Shown: piece after piece, positions 2,856 to 10,739 of the stretch | Layout of the letters: each line of letters opens with the position of its first letter | Position numbering within the stretch: the stretch's first letter is position 1 | Source: Chloroflexota bacterium | GTDB taxonomy: Bacteria; Chloroflexota; Limnocylindria; QHBO01 | DNA length: 64,000 nt | NCBI GenBank assembly: GCA_040902225.1 | Contig: JBBDXT010000004.1 | Span: 872,309-936,308 of the forward strand | Direction of reading: 5' to 3' | Program-made: the position numbers and the translations under genes | The notes under the pieces: model-generated | Told to the model about the DNA's origin: nothing | The model's input: only the letters and a program-made list of their open reading frames with translations | The model's database searches: none

Positions 2856-3458
2856 CTAGGACGGGCTCGGTTCCACCGGCGTTGACCCCGCCGTCGTTTC
2901 GGGCTGGAACGTTGGAATGCTGACGTTTGGGTCGAGCGCCTTGGCCTTGGCAAGCTCCAGCGCACCCTCCTCGACCTGCCCATTCGCTCGCAGGAGCAGG
3001 CCGAGGTTCAGATGCCCGCTGGCGTCGTCAGGGCGGACATCGATATACCGCCGGTAGATGTCCATGGCCTCGGAGATGGACCCGGCGTCGGTCCGCACGA
3101 TCGCCAGATTGAAGAGCGCCGACGGAAACTCTGGATCAATCAGCAGGGCCAGTCGGTAATCGTTTTCCGCTTCGAAGGCTCGGCCGGCGTTCTGAGCAAT
3201 GACCCCAAGGTTGTAGATGCAGAACTGGTTGAGTGGTTCGTGCTTGAGACACGCCTTGTAATGCGCAACCGCCTCATCCGTCTTGCCCTGACTTGAGGAG
3301 GCCAGACCGGCGTTCAGCTCGTCGAGCGCCTTCTGGCCTTCGCTCCCACCGCCACAGCCCGTCATGAGAACGACCAGGGCGACCAAGGCCAAAATCCCTC
3401 CTAGGCGTGGGCTGACCGGCCCTCTCTGCCGTGGGCGATCTAGCGTGGCCGGAATCAT
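2856..3458 (-). CDS. TPR-repeat lipoprotein
   Basis: A 200-residue protein from the ATG at 3458, chosen because GGAGG lies six bases ahead; an upstream ATG at 3485 lacks this. The N-terminus has a basic stretch, a hydrophobic helix and the lipobox LMTGC, so it is predicted to be lipid-anchored outside the membrane. Residues ~45-175 hold about four tetratricopeptide repeats (for example CIYNLGVIAQNAGRAFEAEN and LFNLAIVRTDAGSISEAMD). The tail is rich in P, S and T. Such proteins act as binding scaffolds; the partner is unknown. It diverges from the giant glycosyltransferase across 236 bp, so a link to cell-surface glycosylation is possible but unproven. Confidence 0.8.
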   Translation of the reverse strand: MIPATLDRPRQRGPVSPRLGGILALVALVVLMTGCGGGSEGQKALDELNAGLASSSQGKTDEAVAHYKACLKHEPLNQFCIYNLGVIAQNAGRAFEAENDYRLALLIDPEFPSALFNLAIVRTDAGSISEAMDIYRRYIDVRPDDASGHLNLGLLLRANGQVEEGALELAKAKALDPNVSIPTFQPETTAGSTPVEPSPS

Positions 3459-3694
3459 GCAGGCCCTCCGAGATTCGGTTGGCATTCGGCGTTCCGCCCC
3501 ATCCTACGTGACCTTGATCGAATTGCGGTGGTGTATGGGCGTGCCATCTGGGAAGTTTCGCGGTGGCGCATTGGGAGGTCGATGGCTCCCCGGTACGGGG
3601 GCACGAGAGGGACTTCCGTCGCCTCCGGGGACCGTGAGAATCAACTGCTATACTCCCGCCGCGCGATTCAGTTTCGCACCGGAGTGGTCCCATC

Positions 3695-6600
3695 TTGACG
3701 TTGTCCAACGGTGGGAACGAAGCACCTCCTCCGCCCTCGGAGGATCGACCGGCCGGGCTCGCCAAGCTGCTTCAGGCAATTGCCCCTATCCTCCTCGCAG
3801 GCCTGCTGCTCCGCGTGGTTATCGCGTATGTGATCGCGCCCGGCCAGGGGTTGCAGGCGGATCTCGACTATTTCAAGAACGCGGCCCTCACGCTGGCCGA
3901 TTACGGGCCAGGCGGTTTCGTCGCACATAACGGCTTCTACCAGCCGTCACCGGTCGGCTACCTGTACTTCCTGTGGCCCCTGGGCCTCGCCGGCCGGTTC
4001 CTCGGCGGACTGCTTGGACAACCGGCCGATGGCATCACACTCGCGCTCCTCAAGGTGCCCGCCATCCTTGCGGACCTGGGCATCGCCATCCTGCTGTACC
4101 GAGCTGGTCGGCGCTGGTTCGGCAGCCGGGCGGGTCTTGTGGCTGCGGCCCTCTACCTGTTCGTCCCGATAACCTGGTACGAGTCTGCGGTTTTCGGGCA
4201 GGTTGATTCGGTCGGCCTCTTCTTTGTCGTTGCCGCCCTCCTACTTCTATTGGGGGGCTGGAGTGAACCCGCTGTGGCGATGGCCGTCCTCGCAGCGGTC
4301 ATCAAGCCTCAGAATGCAATCTGCCTGGTGGTGATCGGGCCCATACTGCTGCGTCGTCACCTCTTCGTTGTGGGCTCAGGACCGATACCCGGGAGTAGGA
4401 GTCGCAACGCGGTCCTGGATCGCATCCTGGTGGGCTGGTTTTCCAAGCGCCAGGGATTCGAGCGGCTCGTATCGAGCGCAATCGTGGCGGTCGCTGTCTT
4501 CGTGATTGCCATCCTGCCATTCGATCTGCAGTTGCTGGCACCCCCGGAGCTGGTGAGTATCCCGGTGATCGGCCAGGTATCGGGCTTCGTGAGCCTGATC
4601 GGCTCGTTGGCGGACTACTACCACGTCCTCACGGCGAACGCCTTCAATGCATGGGCCCTGGTCGGTCCCATCCCGCTCTACAGCGAGCTGAGTCGCACCT
4701 TCATCTGGACCTTCGACTCGCTACAGGTCATCGGCCCGATCCAGGCGGTGACCATCGGCGCGACATCATTCGCGCTGGTTACGGCCGGTGTGGCAATCGT
4801 GCTTCTGCTGAGGGATGACCGAGGGGCAATCCTCGGTAGCTTGACCGTGCTCGCCCTGGCCTTCTTCGCGTTACCGACCCGGGCGCACGAACGGTACCTC
4901 TTCCCCGTCTTCGTGACCTTCGCCCTGCTGGTGGCTGGCACCACACTCTCGGAACGCCGCTGGCGATGGTGGTACATCGCCCTGGGAGTGCTGGCGGCCG
5001 TGAACCTGCATGCAGTGGTAACGCTGTCCCAGCCAGGATTTGCGTCCCCGGGTCTGATCGGCGCTCCCCTCGGGGATCTATTTCGCAGCGACGCCGTGGT
5101 GATCGCGGTCTCGCTGGCCAATACGGCTCTGTTTGGCGCGCTCCTGGTTGCTTGGGCGCGCGGGATCGCGTTGCCCGCCCTAGCATCGGTCTTACTCCGC
5201 TCGGCGGGGCGCAGGCCGCCGAGCGCGATGCCTCAGCCGTCGGCCGCGCCGACCAGCTCAGCAGCAGCTCGCGTCGACGCGCCGGAACGACTGGTTGAAG
5301 AGAGGGCTCAACGGAGCAGAACATCCTCACCTGGCGCCCTCGATGCCGCCATGCAGTGGATGTCAGGCTTGGCCGATAACCTGTCGAAACCTTTTCGACG
5401 TCGCCTCGATGCAGGGTCGCCGCCCGCAGACAACAGTGGCGCTCTGTCCACCGAGGAGGCTGGCCGCCTTGATCGACGGGATATTTGGGTCCTGATCGCG
5501 ATCCTGGTCGTGACCTTCGCGGTCCGAACGTATCGCATCGATACCCCGCGCGGAGTCTATTTCGACGAACTGTACTACCCGGCGACGGGCACCGAGTTTC
5601 TCCAGGACTGGCGGTATGGCATCCACACCGAGATCTTCGAGTGGACCCATCCGCACATCTCGAAGTACGTTCAGGCGCTGAGCATCGCTGCGTTTGGGAA
5701 CGACCGGGCCACCACCGCCGCAAGCGTCGGAACGCCGGTGCGGGCGGTCGCATTCGACCCGGCATTCTTCGCCCCCGAGACCGCCACCCGATACGGAGGC
5801 GACCTGATCGCGATCGCGACCGGATCGGAGCTCCGCATCGCTCCCCGCGGGTTGTTTGCCAGAGCGGTCGTTGCGGCCCTCCCGGGTGCGCAGCTGGTGG
5901 CTTTCGATCGAGCCACGCATCGCCTGTACGCGGCGGATGATGATGGCGGCGTTTGGGCAATCGATGGCTCGGCCATCGACGCGGCCCTGAATGGCGGTGG
6001 CGCGCCTGACCCGGTCCCAATTGCTGACCTCCAGGGCCAGATCACTACCCTCCGCGTCGTCGTTCGCGACCGCGTCCTCGCCGTTACCGACGGCCATCGG
6101 CTCACCCTGCTCACCGGGGCAGGTGCGCCGCTTGCAACCGCGAGCCTGACCGGACTGAGCGGCATCACGACGATGCCGGTGGGCGAACAGACGCAACTCG
6201 TTGCCGCCGTCCCGGGAGGTCTGAAGGGGCTCGATGCGAATAGCCTGCAGGAATTCTCCAGCATCGGATTGCCAGCTCGTCCACTTGGGATCGAGTTCGT
6301 TGACGGCAGTGACTTCGGATGGCGCAACCAGGCGACCCTGCCCACTCCCACGATTTACGCCACCCTCGACTCCAGCCAGATGGCGGCCGTGCAGGTCGGA
6401 GGAGATGGCGGCATGACCCTATTCGATCTTTTTGGGATGCCCGGCCCGGTGGTCGAGGCGCATTGGAATCGGCCTTCAAACATGGTCCACGTGCTCGGTC
6501 AGACCTCAACCGGCGACCCAACCATCTATGTCGTCGAACCTCACACCAATTCTGTCTTCGCCGACGCGCGCCTTCCGTTCGACCCCGTCGCCTGGATGCT

Positions 6601-8335
6601 CGATGTCCAGCCCGACACGCCGTCACTCGATCGCCAGCAGGCGCTTACCTTTTCGGCCTCCGGGACGGTGGTGTACGTCGATGCTGGGAGCCATGCCTCG
6701 GCATGGAGGCTGCCTGGCGTCGTCGCTGGGACGCTGACCGCCGCGCTCATGTACCTCCTTGCCCGCATGCTCTTCCGGCGCCGGGTAGTCGCCGTCTTGC
6801 TGGCCGTGGTGATGGCCCTTGACGGCCTGCTCTTCATCCAGGGCCGCATTGCGATGAATGACTCATTGCTTGGCTTCTTCATCGTCGCTGCATTCGCGCT
6901 ATTGCTGGCCCTGATGCAGGCCAGGCCCCGAGGGCCCGGCCGATGGCTGTTGCCGGTTTTCGGGTTACCGGTGGTCGGCCTCCTGCTCGGCCTTGCACTG
7001 GGCACCAAGTGGGTCGGGGTGTATGCCATCGGTGGCGCTGTCCTGATGGTGCTGGCGCGGACCCAGGCCGGCAGATGGTTGGCGTTGGCCGGGATGGTGC
7101 TCCTGACCGCCGTATTCGGATTCCAGGCCTTGGCGAGCCAGCCGCCGAACGTGACGTTCGTGCTTTTGATGCTCGGCTTGACAGTGCTCATGGGGGTGGT
7201 GGTCGTGCGGCCGCTCGACCCCTCCCGCGGGAGCAACTCAGCGAGTATTCCAGGCTGGGTGAATCCGCGTGTTCGCTTCGGCATCCCGTTTGCGTTCGCC
7301 CTGGCATGCCTCTTGATCATGCCGCTCGTCGTGTACGTAGTCAGCTACATACCGTGGACCTTGTCGGCGACCGGTGATCCGCAGCTATTCCCAGGCTGGC
7401 CGCCAGGTCATACCGGCCAGACATTCCTGGACCTGCAATCGCAGATGTACCACTACCACAACGACCTTCGGACTCCACACGCCGCATCGTCGCCATGGTG
7501 GGCGTGGCCGCTCGGGCTGAAGCCGGTCTGGGGTCACCTCAACACGTACAGCGACGGCTCGCAGGTGATCATGCTGCTGACCGGAAACCCCGTGCTGCTG
7601 TGGCTGGGGATCCCGGCATCTGTGTTCGGGGCGTGGCAGGCGTGGCGTCGCCGCAGCACCGCCTTGGCGTTCGTCGTGATCGCGATGTGCTCGCTCTGGC
7701 TGCCATGGGCGCGTATCGACCGCGTGGCGTACAACTACCACTGGTACACGATTCTGCCGTTCTACTACCTGCTCCTTGCCTATTTCCTGGCCGAGGTGTG
7801 GAACGGCCCATCGGGCCGTACCTGGTCGCTTGCGCGGGTGGCCGTTGCGGCCGTTCTTATCCTCCCGGCACTGATGTGGATCTTCAAGGACGGCCTGTGC
7901 GCCGTCGCCGGGGTCGCCGAGATCAATCCGACCTCGTTCGAGTGCAATCGGCCACTCCTGGACGTCGCGCTGCCGTTAGGCCTCTGGTTGATCGGCTCCG
8001 TCGTCGCCGCCTGGTTCATTCTCGGCATGCAGAAACCGCGACGCTTGGTCGCTGTGGTGGTCGGTGCGGCCGCGATAGGCTTTGCGGTCCTCTATCCGGC
8101 GCTATCCGCGTTGCCGCTACCCAACGGCTGGCCGTTCATCTATCAAGGGCTGCTGCCGACCTGGGATATCTCCTTCCAGTTCAACTCCAACACAATTGCA
8201 GTCTCCGACGTCCCGCTGCTTGGATTCGGGGCCGGCGCAGTTGGAGTTGCTGCTGCCGCCTTGACATGGATCGTGATGCGGCGGATGCCACTGAGAATGG
8301 GATGGCGCACCGGGTCCAGAAGCAACGTGGATTGA
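3695..8335 (+). CDS. Giant fused membrane glycosyltransferase (GT-C mannosyltransferase plus PMT-like half)
   Basis: A 1546-residue polytopic protein from a TTG at 3695, with GGAG at 3681-3684 and a -10-like TATACT at 3649-3654. Residues 1 to ~500 form a multi-helix GT-C enzyme with a loop acidic motif (ADLDYF) and RAHERYLFP near the end, typical of polyprenol-phosphate-sugar-dependent mannosyltransferases. A Ser/Pro/Ala-rich linker (~505-590) follows. The second half resembles protein O-mannosyltransferase: a first helix (~597-615), the catalytic-type FDELYYP (~621) and many helices from ~1005 to 1530. Between ~670 and 1000 an external loop carries a ~330-residue beta-rich insert. It likely transfers lipid-linked sugars to proteins or surface glycans on the outer face. 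Acceptor and sugar are not determinable here. Confidence 0.8.
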   Translation: MTLSNGGNEAPPPPSEDRPAGLAKLLQAIAPILLAGLLLRVVIAYVIAPGQGLQADLDYFKNAALTLADYGPGGFVAHNGFYQPSPVGYLYFLWPLGLAGRFLGGLLGQPADGITLALLKVPAILADLGIAILLYRAGRRWFGSRAGLVAAALYLFVPITWYESAVFGQVDSVGLFFVVAALLLLLGGWSEPAVAMAVLAAVIKPQNAICLVVIGPILLRRHLFVVGSGPIPGSRSRNAVLDRILVGWFSKRQGFERLVSSAIVAVAVFVIAILPFDLQLLAPPELVSIPVIGQVSGFVSLIGSLADYYHVLTANAFNAWALVGPIPLYSELSRTFIWTFDSLQVIGPIQAVTIGATSFALVTAGVAIVLLLRDDRGAILGSLTVLALAFFALPTRAHERYLFPVFVTFALLVAGTTLSERRWRWWYIALGVLAAVNLHAVVTLSQPGFASPGLIGAPLGDLFRSDAVVIAVSLANTALFGALLVAWARGIALPALASVLLRSAGRRPPSAMPQPSAAPTSSAAARVDAPERLVEERAQRSRTSSPGALDAAMQWMSGLADNLSKPFRRRLDAGSPPADNSGALSTEEAGRLDRRDIWVLIAILVVTFAVRTYRIDTPRGVYFDELYYPATGTEFLQDWRYGIHTEIFEWTHPHISKYVQALSIAAFGNDRATTAASVGTPVRAVAFDPAFFAPETATRYGGDLIAIATGSELRIAPRGLFARAVVAALPGAQLVAFDRATHRLYAADDDGGVWAIDGSAIDAALNGGGAPDPVPIADLQGQITTLRVVVRDRVLAVTDGHRLTLLTGAGAPLATASLTGLSGITTMPVGEQTQLVAAVPGGLKGLDANSLQEFSSIGLPARPLGIEFVDGSDFGWRNQATLPTPTIYATLDSSQMAAVQVGGDGGMTLFDLFGMPGPVVEAHWNRPSNMVHVLGQTSTGDPTIYVVEPHTNSVFADARLPFDPVAWMLDVQPDTPSLDRQQALTFSASGTVVYVDAGSHASAWRLPGVVAGTLTAALMYLLARMLFRRRVVAVLLAVVMALDGLLFIQGRIAMNDSLLGFFIVAAFALLLALMQARPRGPGRWLLPVFGLPVVGLLLGLALGTKWVGVYAIGGAVLMVLARTQAGRWLALAGMVLLTAVFGFQALASQPPNVTFVLLMLGLTVLMGVVVVRPLDPSRGSNSASIPGWVNPRVRFGIPFAFALACLLIMPLVVYVVSYIPWTLSATGDPQLFPGWPPGHTGQTFLDLQSQMYHYHNDLRTPHAASSPWWAWPLGLKPVWGHLNTYSDGSQVIMLLTGNPVLLWLGIPASVFGAWQAWRRRSTALAFVVIAMCSLWLPWARIDRVAYNYHWYTILPFYYLLLAYFLAEVWNGPSGRTWSLARVAVAAVLILPALMWIFKDGLCAVAGVAEINPTSFECNRPLLDVALPLGLWLIGSVVAAWFILGMQKPRRLVAVVVGAAAIGFAVLYPALSALPLPNGWPFIYQGLLPTWDISFQFNSNTIAVSDVPLLGFGAGAVGVAAAALTWIVMRRMPLRMGWRTGSRSNVD

Positions 8336-8357: not shown

Positions 8358-8423
8358 CTAGCCAGCTCGAATGAGGGCATGATCGTCGACCAGCGTGACG
8401 CGCATCGGAGGCGATGAGCTCAT
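8358..8423 (-). pseudogene. Truncated stump of a response regulator gene
   Basis: The ATG at 8421-8423 overlaps the TGA of the kinase (ATGA), exactly as at 2317-2320. The frame encodes MSSSPPMRVTLVDDHALIRA plus one glycine and then stops at 8358. It matches the N-terminus of the regulator at 1646-2320, including its acidic pair. All the rest of the receiver and DNA-binding domain is missing. The break lies 22 bp from the stop codon of the giant glycosyltransferase, so the regulator was removed or replaced at that junction. Confidence 0.8.
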
Positions 8424-9937
8424 TGGGCTGCCGGTGCCAGCGGCACGTCGACGATCACCCGCGTGCCGTCCATCGGCCGCGACTCGACAGCCAGCGAGGC
8501 CCCGATCAGTTCCGCGCGCTCGCGCATGCTTCGCAGACCATAGCCCTTCACGCCGCCGACGCCGAGGTCGAAGCCGCGCCCGTTGTCGGCCACCGTCAGC
8601 CGCAGCCCGTCAGGGGTGGACTCGATGTTGACCAGGATGCGGCTGGGATCCGCGTGCTTGCGGGCGTTGGCCAGGGCCTCCTGCGCGATGCGCAGCAGCT
8701 CGGCTTGGGCGCGTGGCTCAAGGCGTTCGACGATGGGGTCGATGCGGCGTTCGGCGGGAATCCCGAAGCGATCGCTGAACTCGTCGACGTAGCTCGCCAT
8801 GACCTCGACGAACGTGCTCCCTTCGGCCGGCCGCAGAGCCAGGATCGCCTGGCGGGCCTCGTCCATGGCCGAGTCGATCGAGCTCGAAACATCGGCTGCT
8901 AGCGCCAACGCCTCATCCGAGAGGACGCCCTCCGTCAGCAGGCGACCTTGCTTGAGCCTGGCCAGCCACAGCTGTTGCGCCATCCCGTCATGGATCTCGC
9001 GCGCCAGGCGGGCGCGCTCCTCGGCGGTGGCCTGCGTCGCCGCGATGTCGCGCAGGCGGGCCAGCTCCACGTTGGCCGCGTGGAGGTCGCGCACATCCTG
9101 CCGCGTCTCAACCGCCACGGCGACCAGCAGGATCCCGTAGAAGGCGACGCGCAGCAGGTCGCCGGTGGTCACCAGTGACGCATATGACCCGGGGTGAATC
9201 GCCGCGTGCACCTGGCTGAAGGCGGCCACGATGAAGCCGACCGCCAGGTAGGCATCCACCCTGCGACGGTCGCGCCGGTAGACCCGGTAGCTGAACGCCG
9301 CGGCCGCCAGCATGGCCAGCCCGATGAGCGCCTGCAGCGCGATGAGGCCGTTGCTGCTGGCTTCCACCAGCGGCGACGTCGGATCGCTTCGCAGCTGCGC
9401 CAGGGCGGTGTCATCGAGCAGCGGCGGCAACGATGGCTGGATCGCGGCCGCCGCCACGATCACCGCTGTCACGAGGAGCGCCGGCAGCGCCAGCACCAGG
9501 GCAGCTGGCCACCCGTCGGAGGACCAGCGTCGCAAGGCGGCCACGCCGGCGACGCCCAGCAGGCCCGCGGCCACGCCACGAGTCAGGATGACGGTCCACA
9601 GCGGCAGCTGACCGGGTGCCTCCAGCGAGAGTCCAAAGGCGGCGTCGATGCCCAGAACACCGACCAGGATGAGCAGGGCGTTCTGGGCGGCCAGCACCAG
9701 GAACGCGCTGGCGCGGATGAGGGCGGAGGGGTCGTTCCCCTCCTGGAAATGGACCCAGCCCAGGATCGCGACGGCGACAGCGACCAGCAGGCCGAGGGCA
9801 CTGGTCACGAGATCGAGCGGCTGGTTGACGGTGGCGGGCGCGAGTCGCGGGTCGAAGATGATGACGATGGTCATCAAGGCCAGCAGCACCGGCACCATCG
9901 CGATGCCGAGCTCCAGGCGCCGTTCGTCTCGCGTCAC
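8420..9937 (-). CDS. Membrane sensor histidine kinase (HisKA_3 / NarX-like)
   Basis: A 505-residue kinase from the GTG at 9937, five bases after the stop of the upstream phosphatase; an ATG at 9982 would overlap that gene by 41 nt. Residues ~10-290 carry about seven or eight hydrophobic helices with no recognisable ligand domain. A linker helix leads to the HisKA_3 motif REIHDGMAQQ with phospho-acceptor H316. The ATPase domain shows N-box QEALANARKHAD, DNGRGF and GYGLRSMRERA. It should autophosphorylate and pass phosphate to a NarL-type regulator. Its own regulator gene is reduced to a stump, so the intact regulator at 1646-2320 is the best candidate partner. The signal sensed is unknown. Confidence 0.88.
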   Translation of the reverse strand: MTRDERRLELGIAMVPVLLALMTIVIIFDPRLAPATVNQPLDLVTSALGLLVAVAVAILGWVHFQEGNDPSALIRASAFLVLAAQNALLILVGVLGIDAAFGLSLEAPGQLPLWTVILTRGVAAGLLGVAGVAALRRWSSDGWPAALVLALPALLVTAVIVAAAAIQPSLPPLLDDTALAQLRSDPTSPLVEASSNGLIALQALIGLAMLAAAAFSYRVYRRDRRRVDAYLAVGFIVAAFSQVHAAIHPGSYASLVTTGDLLRVAFYGILLVAVAVETRQDVRDLHAANVELARLRDIAATQATAEERARLAREIHDGMAQQLWLARLKQGRLLTEGVLSDEALALAADVSSSIDSAMDEARQAILALRPAEGSTFVEVMASYVDEFSDRFGIPAERRIDPIVERLEPRAQAELLRIAQEALANARKHADPSRILVNIESTPDGLRLTVADNGRGFDLGVGGVKGYGLRSMRERAELIGASLAVESRPMDGTRVIVDVPLAPAAQ

Positions 9938-9941
9938 AGGC

Positions 9942-10739
9942 TCAGGCCAGGTGCTCGACGATGGCGGCGTGCAGGCGGCCATTGGTGGCCAGCGCCTGGG
10001 GGCCGGCGTAGGAGTCGCGACCGGCGAAATCGGTCAGCCGGCCGCCCGCCTCACGGACGATCAGCGCCGGGGCGGCCAGGTCCCAGAGCGTCGGACCGAT
10101 CTCGAGCATCGCATCGGCCGCTCCTTCGGCCACCAGCATGTAGCCCCAGAAGTCGCCGAAGCCGCGGTCACGCCACGCGCGGCGTCCGAGCGACGCGATC
10201 GCAGGCCCGTAGCCCGCCGCCTCCAGGGGTCGGAGGCCGGACCACACCACCTGGGCGTCTGCCAGCTTCTCGACGGCGCTGACGCTGATGGCGCGTTCAC
10301 CCCGCAGGTCGCGAACCGATGATCCCTCCCCCTTCGATGCGTGCCAGCGCCGCTGCAGCGCGGGCGCCGACACCGCCGCGGCCAGCAGCTCACCAGCGCG
10401 CTCGACGGCGACCAGGGTGGCGAAGACGGGGATGCCGCGGACCAGGTTGTGGGTGCCATCGATCGGGTCGATGATCCAGCGCGTCTCGCCGTCCCCCGCC
10501 TCATCGGCGAACTCCTCGCCGACCAGGCCGTGGTGCGGGAAGGCAGCCGTGATCCGCTCGCGGAGGAGCGTCTCGACCTCGGTATCTGCCTGGGTGACGA
10601 GCGTGTCATCCGGCTTGGAGGAGACCCGCAGTCCGGTCTCCACGTGGCGCATGACGAGGGGATCGGTCTCGTCCAGCAGCTCGACCGCGAAACGGCGCAG
10701 GGCGGCGGGATCGCGGTCGTCCGTGTGCTGGGCAGACAC
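9942..10739 (-). CDS. Inositol monophosphatase-family phosphatase (possibly histidinol-phosphatase, HisN type)
   Basis: A 265-residue protein with the metal-binding signatures of the family: GEEF at 74-77, DPIDGTHNLV at 91-100 and a C-terminal WDLAAPALIVREAGG near 213. These residues bind magnesium and hydrolyse a phosphate monoester. Family members act on inositol-1-phosphate, histidinol phosphate or 3'-phosphoadenosine phosphate. The sequence is close in style to HisN-type histidinol-phosphatases, but no histidine genes lie nearby, so the substrate is left open. It starts with GTG and is transcribed with the downstream kinase. It diverges from a transporter across 17 bp. Confidence 0.82.
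   Translation of the reverse strand: MSAQHTDDRDPAALRRFAVELLDETDPLVMRHVETGLRVSSKPDDTLVTQADTEVETLLRERITAAFPHHGLVGEEFADEAGDGETRWIIDPIDGTHNLVRGIPVFATLVAVERAGELLAAAVSAPALQRRWHASKGEGSSVRDLRGERAISVSAVEKLADAQVVWSGLRPLEAAGYGPAIASLGRRAWRDRGFGDFWGYMLVAEGAADAMLEIGPTLWDLAAPALIVREAGGRLTDFAGRDSYAGPQALATNGRLHAAIVEHLA

Follow-up and report, generated by a model that had tools for sequence, protein, structure and literature searches.

A conserved fusion of GT87-like and PMT-type (GT39) glycosyltransferases with a predicted beta-propeller insert in the class Limnocylindria

Does one long open reading frame of a Limnocylindria genome truly encode two membrane glycosyltransferases in a single chain, and what would be the role of the large domain inserted in one of them? 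The frame lies in a stretch of 64,000 nucleotides (the window), from a genome of 2.28 Mb in 7 contigs. The sequence-only reading of this locus had claimed one chain of 1546 residues, formed by two fused GT-C enzymes. Its coordinates proved exact and its frame intact (Table 1), and the fusion was borne out by profiles and predicted structures.

Table 1. Features of the fused gene and its divergent neighbour, in window coordinates
Feature	Position	Strand	Basis or conservation
Divergent TPR lipoprotein gene	2856..3485	-	Homologue adjoins fusion in L041
Complete fused ORF	3695..8335	+	1546 aa; homologous fused frames across Limnocylindria
GT87-like GT-C half, residues ~18-505	3746..5209	+	PMT_2 Pfam match; sub-threshold GT87; hhalign
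D56, first external loop of N-terminal half	3860..3862	+	Asp in 48/48 rows with N-terminal half
H-E-R-Y motif, residues 398-401 of N-terminal half	4886..4897	+	Invariant
Arg/Pro/Ser-rich polar linker, residues 506-585	5210..5449	+	Sequence; GC3 bias lost in residues 501-600
PMT half: TM1 and start of external loop 1, residues ~586-671	5450..5707	+	
D624-E625, PMT catalytic DE motif (MtPMT D74)	5564..5569	+	49/49 rows
T-H-P-H-I-S-K, residues 651-657, HPP-K motif variant	5645..5665	+	H, P, K in 49/49 rows
Inserted seven-bladed beta-propeller (predicted), residues ~672-996	5708..6682	+	AlphaFold2; Foldseek
PMT half remainder: TM2 onwards with PMT_4TMC, residues ~997-1520	6683..8254	+	
D1056 (RIAMND), MtPMT D176 counterpart	6860..6862	+	49/49 rows
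R1343-x-x-Y1346, MtPMT R441/Y444 counterpart	7721..7732	+	R 48/48, F/Y 48/48 ungapped rows

The ORF starts with TTG, with a GGAG a little upstream, and has no internal stops. The GC3 bias follows a single frame all along, except in the linker between the halves, which is presumably cytoplasmic. Two ATGs inside the ORF, at residues 553 and 556, have no evident ribosome-binding site. The sequences are MAG data, and five homologues (L069, L134, L144, L153 and L164) look split, probably through frameshifts, which would suit a mis-assembly or a read-through of two adjacent genes. Against this, the joint of the halves carries neither a stop nor an evident new ribosome-binding site, and the fused N-terminal halves form one clade. 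The fused frame and insert recur in dozens of independent genomes, and mis-assembly is therefore excluded, its remaining probability being negligible. The contigs that carry the fused frame and insert include three with lengths of 629 kb, 808 kb and 978 kb. Homologues showing the halves to be mis-assembled separate genes had been named as a possible refutation, but the halves are fused in homologues throughout the class. Long N-terminal extensions in three homologues (L047, L052 and L055) gave no Pfam match; we read them as open frames that run too far in DNA rich in GC.

The C-terminal half matched the Pfam families PMT (63 bits; cut-off 22.7) and PMT_4TMC (33 bits; cut-off 32.4). Its score against the NCBIfam PMT equivalog NF058602 was 28.8 bits, under the cut-off of 800, and by this model the half counts as divergent, related to its members but no equivalog of them. 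The residues D624, E625, H652, P653, K657, R1051, N1055 and D1056 are invariant across 49 aligned rows. The activity of MtPMT, the Mycobacterium tuberculosis enzyme, requires D74, D176, R441 and Y444 (PMC12331936); when residues were matched by motif and order, all four had counterparts, namely D624, D1056, R1343 and Y1346. The AlphaFold2 model of this half with its insert (47 sequences) reached a pLDDT of 88.4 and a pTM of 0.91, and its top PDB match was Pmt4 of C. thermophilum (9i5k, E 1.6e-9, TMt 0.57), with propellers next.

The C-terminal half resembles MtPMT (GT39) in its PMT and PMT_4TMC domains, DE motif, EL2 Asp, R-x2-Y/F motif and GT-C fold. However, enzymes of the MtPMT type stand alone and have only a short first loop, whereas here a predicted propeller of ~325 residues occupies this loop and a second GT-C enzyme is fused in front. 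The eukaryotic PMT1, PMT2 and PMT4 also combine a PMT core with an additional external beta domain, the MIR domain, but MIR folds as a beta-trefoil and lies in external loop 4, and the extra domain here is a predicted propeller in loop 1. GT39 PMTs as a kind are already known; in the literature searched, no published description of a propeller-bearing PMT or of a GT39-GT87 fusion was found.

The sequence-only reading had the insert as a propeller-like beta domain of residues 660-1005, within the PMT half's first outer loop. It indeed lies there, with D624-E625 and T651-H-P-H-I-S-K upstream and the WR of TM2 downstream, and the predicted strands, from about residue 672 to 996, keep close to that range. 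The DE-to-WR spacing is ~380 residues, against 44-73 in ordinary PMTs of Chloroflexota. Modelled alone (residues 656-1003, 55 sequences), the insert was predicted by AlphaFold2 to be a well-folded domain, with a mean pLDDT of 93.0, a pTM of 0.90 and 28 strands of at least 3 residues arranged as seven four-stranded blades. In the model of the complete PMT half, the propeller strands stand between the loop-1 helices and TM2. Foldseek searches of the PDB found the insert closest to seven-bladed G-beta/WD40 propellers (TM ~0.65-0.68). The suggested fold thus agrees with both the structure prediction and the fold search, and its assignment as a seven-bladed beta-propeller is well supported at the level of the model. 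The window insert matched no Pfam family, and that of the relative L094 gave only sub-threshold matches to PQQ_2 and YVTN. Outside the class, the top match of the insert profile was a YVTN-type secreted beta-propeller protein of Chloroflexota (385 aa, E 1.7e-17), a type that differs in having no attached glycosyltransferase.

Frames with PMT and propeller but without the GT87-like half exist (1118-1254 aa). In the second copies of genus g13 (L058:4964-8686 and L252), a short membrane segment replaces the GT87-like half, and PMT and propeller are kept. The propeller was absent from every free GT87-like homologue found. Given these two patterns, the propeller belongs with the PMT half.

Conservation of the propeller is highest in blades 1-2, the last blade and the closing strands, the regions closest to where the domain joins the membrane portion, and lowest in the middle blades 3-6. 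The low conservation of blades 3-6 is compatible with variation among acceptors and also with relaxed constraint. Protein binding is a general role of propeller scaffolds, and the domain might be a structural or docking platform for a partner, such as a secretion or envelope protein or a third GT-C protein, rather than an acceptor-binding module. The G-beta type of its top structural matches and the conservation near the membrane would favour a platform; its location in the DE loop, the site at which known PMTs bring together donor and acceptor peptide (PMC12331936), argues against one, and we consider this explanation unlikely.

The N-terminal half matched Pfam PMT_2 with 27.3 bits (cut-off 26.1) and GT87 with 16.7 bits, under the cut-off of 25, which is exceeded by the relatives L140 (44.1), L143 (31.0) and L099 (25.5). 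Comparison of this half with a GT87 set by hhalign gave a probability of 96.2% and an E of 2.6e-9 over 66 columns, with the GQ and K motifs in register, and on these profiles it appears related to GT87. Its profile found no match among PDB sequences. The half was also considered as a copy of the PMT half and this was rejected, no such relation being recognisable (hhalign 2%).

Besides D56 and HERY, the invariant positions of this half include a GQ-x-D motif and a K-x-Q. In PimE, the Asp of the first loop (D58) acts as base, K195, Q163, Y92 and W319 are needed, and the leaving phosphate is held by K195 and H322 (PMC12041525). The correspondence with PimE follows order and spacing only; since D56 holds the place of D58 in the order of motifs (PMC12041525), it is presumed to be the catalytic Asp of the half. 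PimE and other GT87 polyprenyl-phosphomannose mannosyltransferases share with it the GT-C family by profile, the first-external-loop Asp and the GQ and K motifs. The differences are the weak sequence relation (66 aligned columns), the HERY motif and the fusion to a PMT.

A first search matched in 61/61 genomes, the window's own and 60 relatives. The insert profile matched in 167 of the 177 Limnocylindria genomes, and in 52 of the 53 with completeness of 90% or more and contamination of 5% or less. All five families, f1 to f5, keep the halves in one frame with the insert, whose size as measured in the alignment is 259-481 residues. In a phylum scan of 301 genomes, strong near-full-length insert matches were confined to Limnocylindria; other matches were weaker and partial, and most of their frames had the size usual for propeller proteins. 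The sampled classes of Chloroflexota other than Limnocylindria showed no full-length insert; their PMTs are free proteins (frames of about 510-755 residues) with a loop ~300 residues shorter. An alignment-based scan of named genomes found homologues, nearly all in Chloroflexi MAGs, including records of Candidatus Limnocylindrales and Candidatus Aquidulcis; the window protein as sole query had given no match. The absence outside Chloroflexota is a result of this named-genome scan. One contig titled Gammaproteobacteria (L150) carries the fused gene and is probably a mis-binned Chloroflexota contig. That the fusion is real and conserved across nearly every Limnocylindria genome is well supported.

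In the tree of N-terminal halves, the fused copies (48/48) grouped in one clade (SH-aLRT 96), with free Chloroflexi homologues outside it and then two actinobacterial ones as outgroup. The PMT tree separated the fused PMT halves from ordinary PMTs once two rows mislabelled as canonical were set aside, L202, in fact the fused gene from G009, and L004, which is not a PMT. The clade and the consistent PMT tree fit a single origin of the fusion in Limnocylindria, placed at the base of the class or earlier. Seven free GT87-like Chloroflexi homologues (L119, L121, L123, L129, L133, L139 and L149) are 45-49% identical to the window N-terminal half, and several of them have glycine-rich tails.

The window copy and its closest relative, L041 (55% identical over residues 15-1530), represent an early-branching second copy, and a full-length match to this type was found in only 2 of the 177 genomes. 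Besides the window copy, its genome encodes a further fused protein (L007, 1568 aa) and an ordinary PMT of 533 aa without insert (G000:C5:5741-6889, L003). The frame of L041 (L041:2733-10559, G051:C7) spans 2608 residues and ends in a third GT-C-like domain, which elsewhere is an adjoining gene. Another long open frame (L262:1111-10113, G313:C67), of 3001 residues, has an extra hydrophobic GT-C-like stretch near its start, followed by the GT87-like half (688-1139), a long unlabelled stretch and the PMT with propeller (1968-2983).

The usual fused copy is often near a gene similar to GT2 polyprenyl-phosphate sugar synthases (25 loci) and a bifunctional-nuclease gene (25 loci). A third GT-C-like membrane protein is encoded next to the fusion in every f2 and f4 locus with sufficient flank, and in the majority of f3 loci; in f2 the two genes can overlap by 4 nt, for example in L087 and L084. 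None of the GT2, nuclease, f3-type or third GT-C neighbours is close to the window copy, which shares with L041 the divergent TPR lipoprotein gene. In the window, a frame of 137 residues at 2317-2730, adjacent to a response regulator, resembles the ATPase portion at the C-terminus of the histidine kinase encoded at 8420-9982, and has the look of a truncated copy of a kinase.

Against NCBIfam, the GT2 neighbour hit several models of lipid-phosphate sugar synthases, all of them under cut-off and none specific for mannose. As GT-C enzymes vary widely in donors and acceptors, and this neighbour is not sugar-specific by profile, the fused enzyme might transfer another sugar or act on a non-protein envelope polymer. 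All four essential MtPMT residues are kept and the top structural match of the entire PMT half is a PMT, which make this very improbable.

In f3, the neighbours are often genes for inositol-1-phosphate synthase, CDP-alcohol phosphatidyltransferase, a lipid A-type acyltransferase, GT4 and a TMEM260-like protein. The first four of these suggest that the halves might serve separate pathways with a common donor, the PMT acting on proteins and the GT87-like half on a PIM-type glycolipid, and that the fusion only balances expression and location. The gene set resembles the actinobacterial pgsA-patA-pimA order. The main known acceptor of PimE is Ac1PIM4 (PMC12041525). From the adjoining PIM-like genes, the acceptor of the N-terminal half could be a glycolipid. 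Nevertheless, the window copy is outside such a neighbourhood, the PIM-like genes are on the strand opposite the fusion in f3 examples such as L054, and the f2 partner is instead the third GT-C gene with its 4-nt overlap in examples. We regard separate pathways as a doubtful explanation.

In actinobacteria, a polyprenyl-phosphate donor supplies the first mannose, which PMT attaches on the outer side of the membrane; PimE, a GT87 enzyme, or other members of GT87 then extend it from the one lipid donor (PMC12757957). Following this order, the fusion is read as an initiator and an elongator joined, that is, as a two-enzyme machine for protein O-mannosylation in which the propeller aids acceptor binding or selection and the halves couple start and extension; we judge its chances to be about even. 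The PMT half would transfer the first sugar, most likely mannose from a polyprenyl-phosphate donor, to Ser/Thr of a secreted protein at the outer membrane face; we infer the sugar, the linkage and the acceptor. The propeller, grown from the catalytic Asp-Glu loop, would stand over the PMT active site, and this position in the catalytic loop suggests that it may help to bind or select acceptor proteins. The GT87-like half would add a further sugar on the same membrane side from the same donor, or might alternatively also mannosylate a PIM-type glycolipid; PimE reportedly works on both kinds of acceptor. The fusion would keep start and extension of the glycan in fixed proximity, and such two-step coupling is plausible because PimE, a GT87 enzyme, has a known extending role. 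Against the joined initiator and elongator count the GT2 profile, which is not mannose-specific, the PMT score far under NF058602 and the window GT87 score under the Pfam cut-off.

More tentatively, we propose as a possibility a class-defining processive O-mannosylation complex, in which the propeller-PMT would capture secreted proteins, the fused GT87-like elongase would take over the new O-mannose, with the third GT-C enzyme in some lineages, and one molecule would set both glycan length and acceptor choice.

Most work on protein O-mannosylation in bacteria concerns actinobacteria, in which separate enzymes start and extend the glycan and little is understood of how acceptors are chosen. A naturally occurring, conserved fusion of homologues of both steps, with a dedicated external domain on the catalytic loop, offers a ready system for the study of PMT acceptor choice and O-mannose chain extension. 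In addition, the fused gene is a candidate marker of the mostly uncultured class Limnocylindria.
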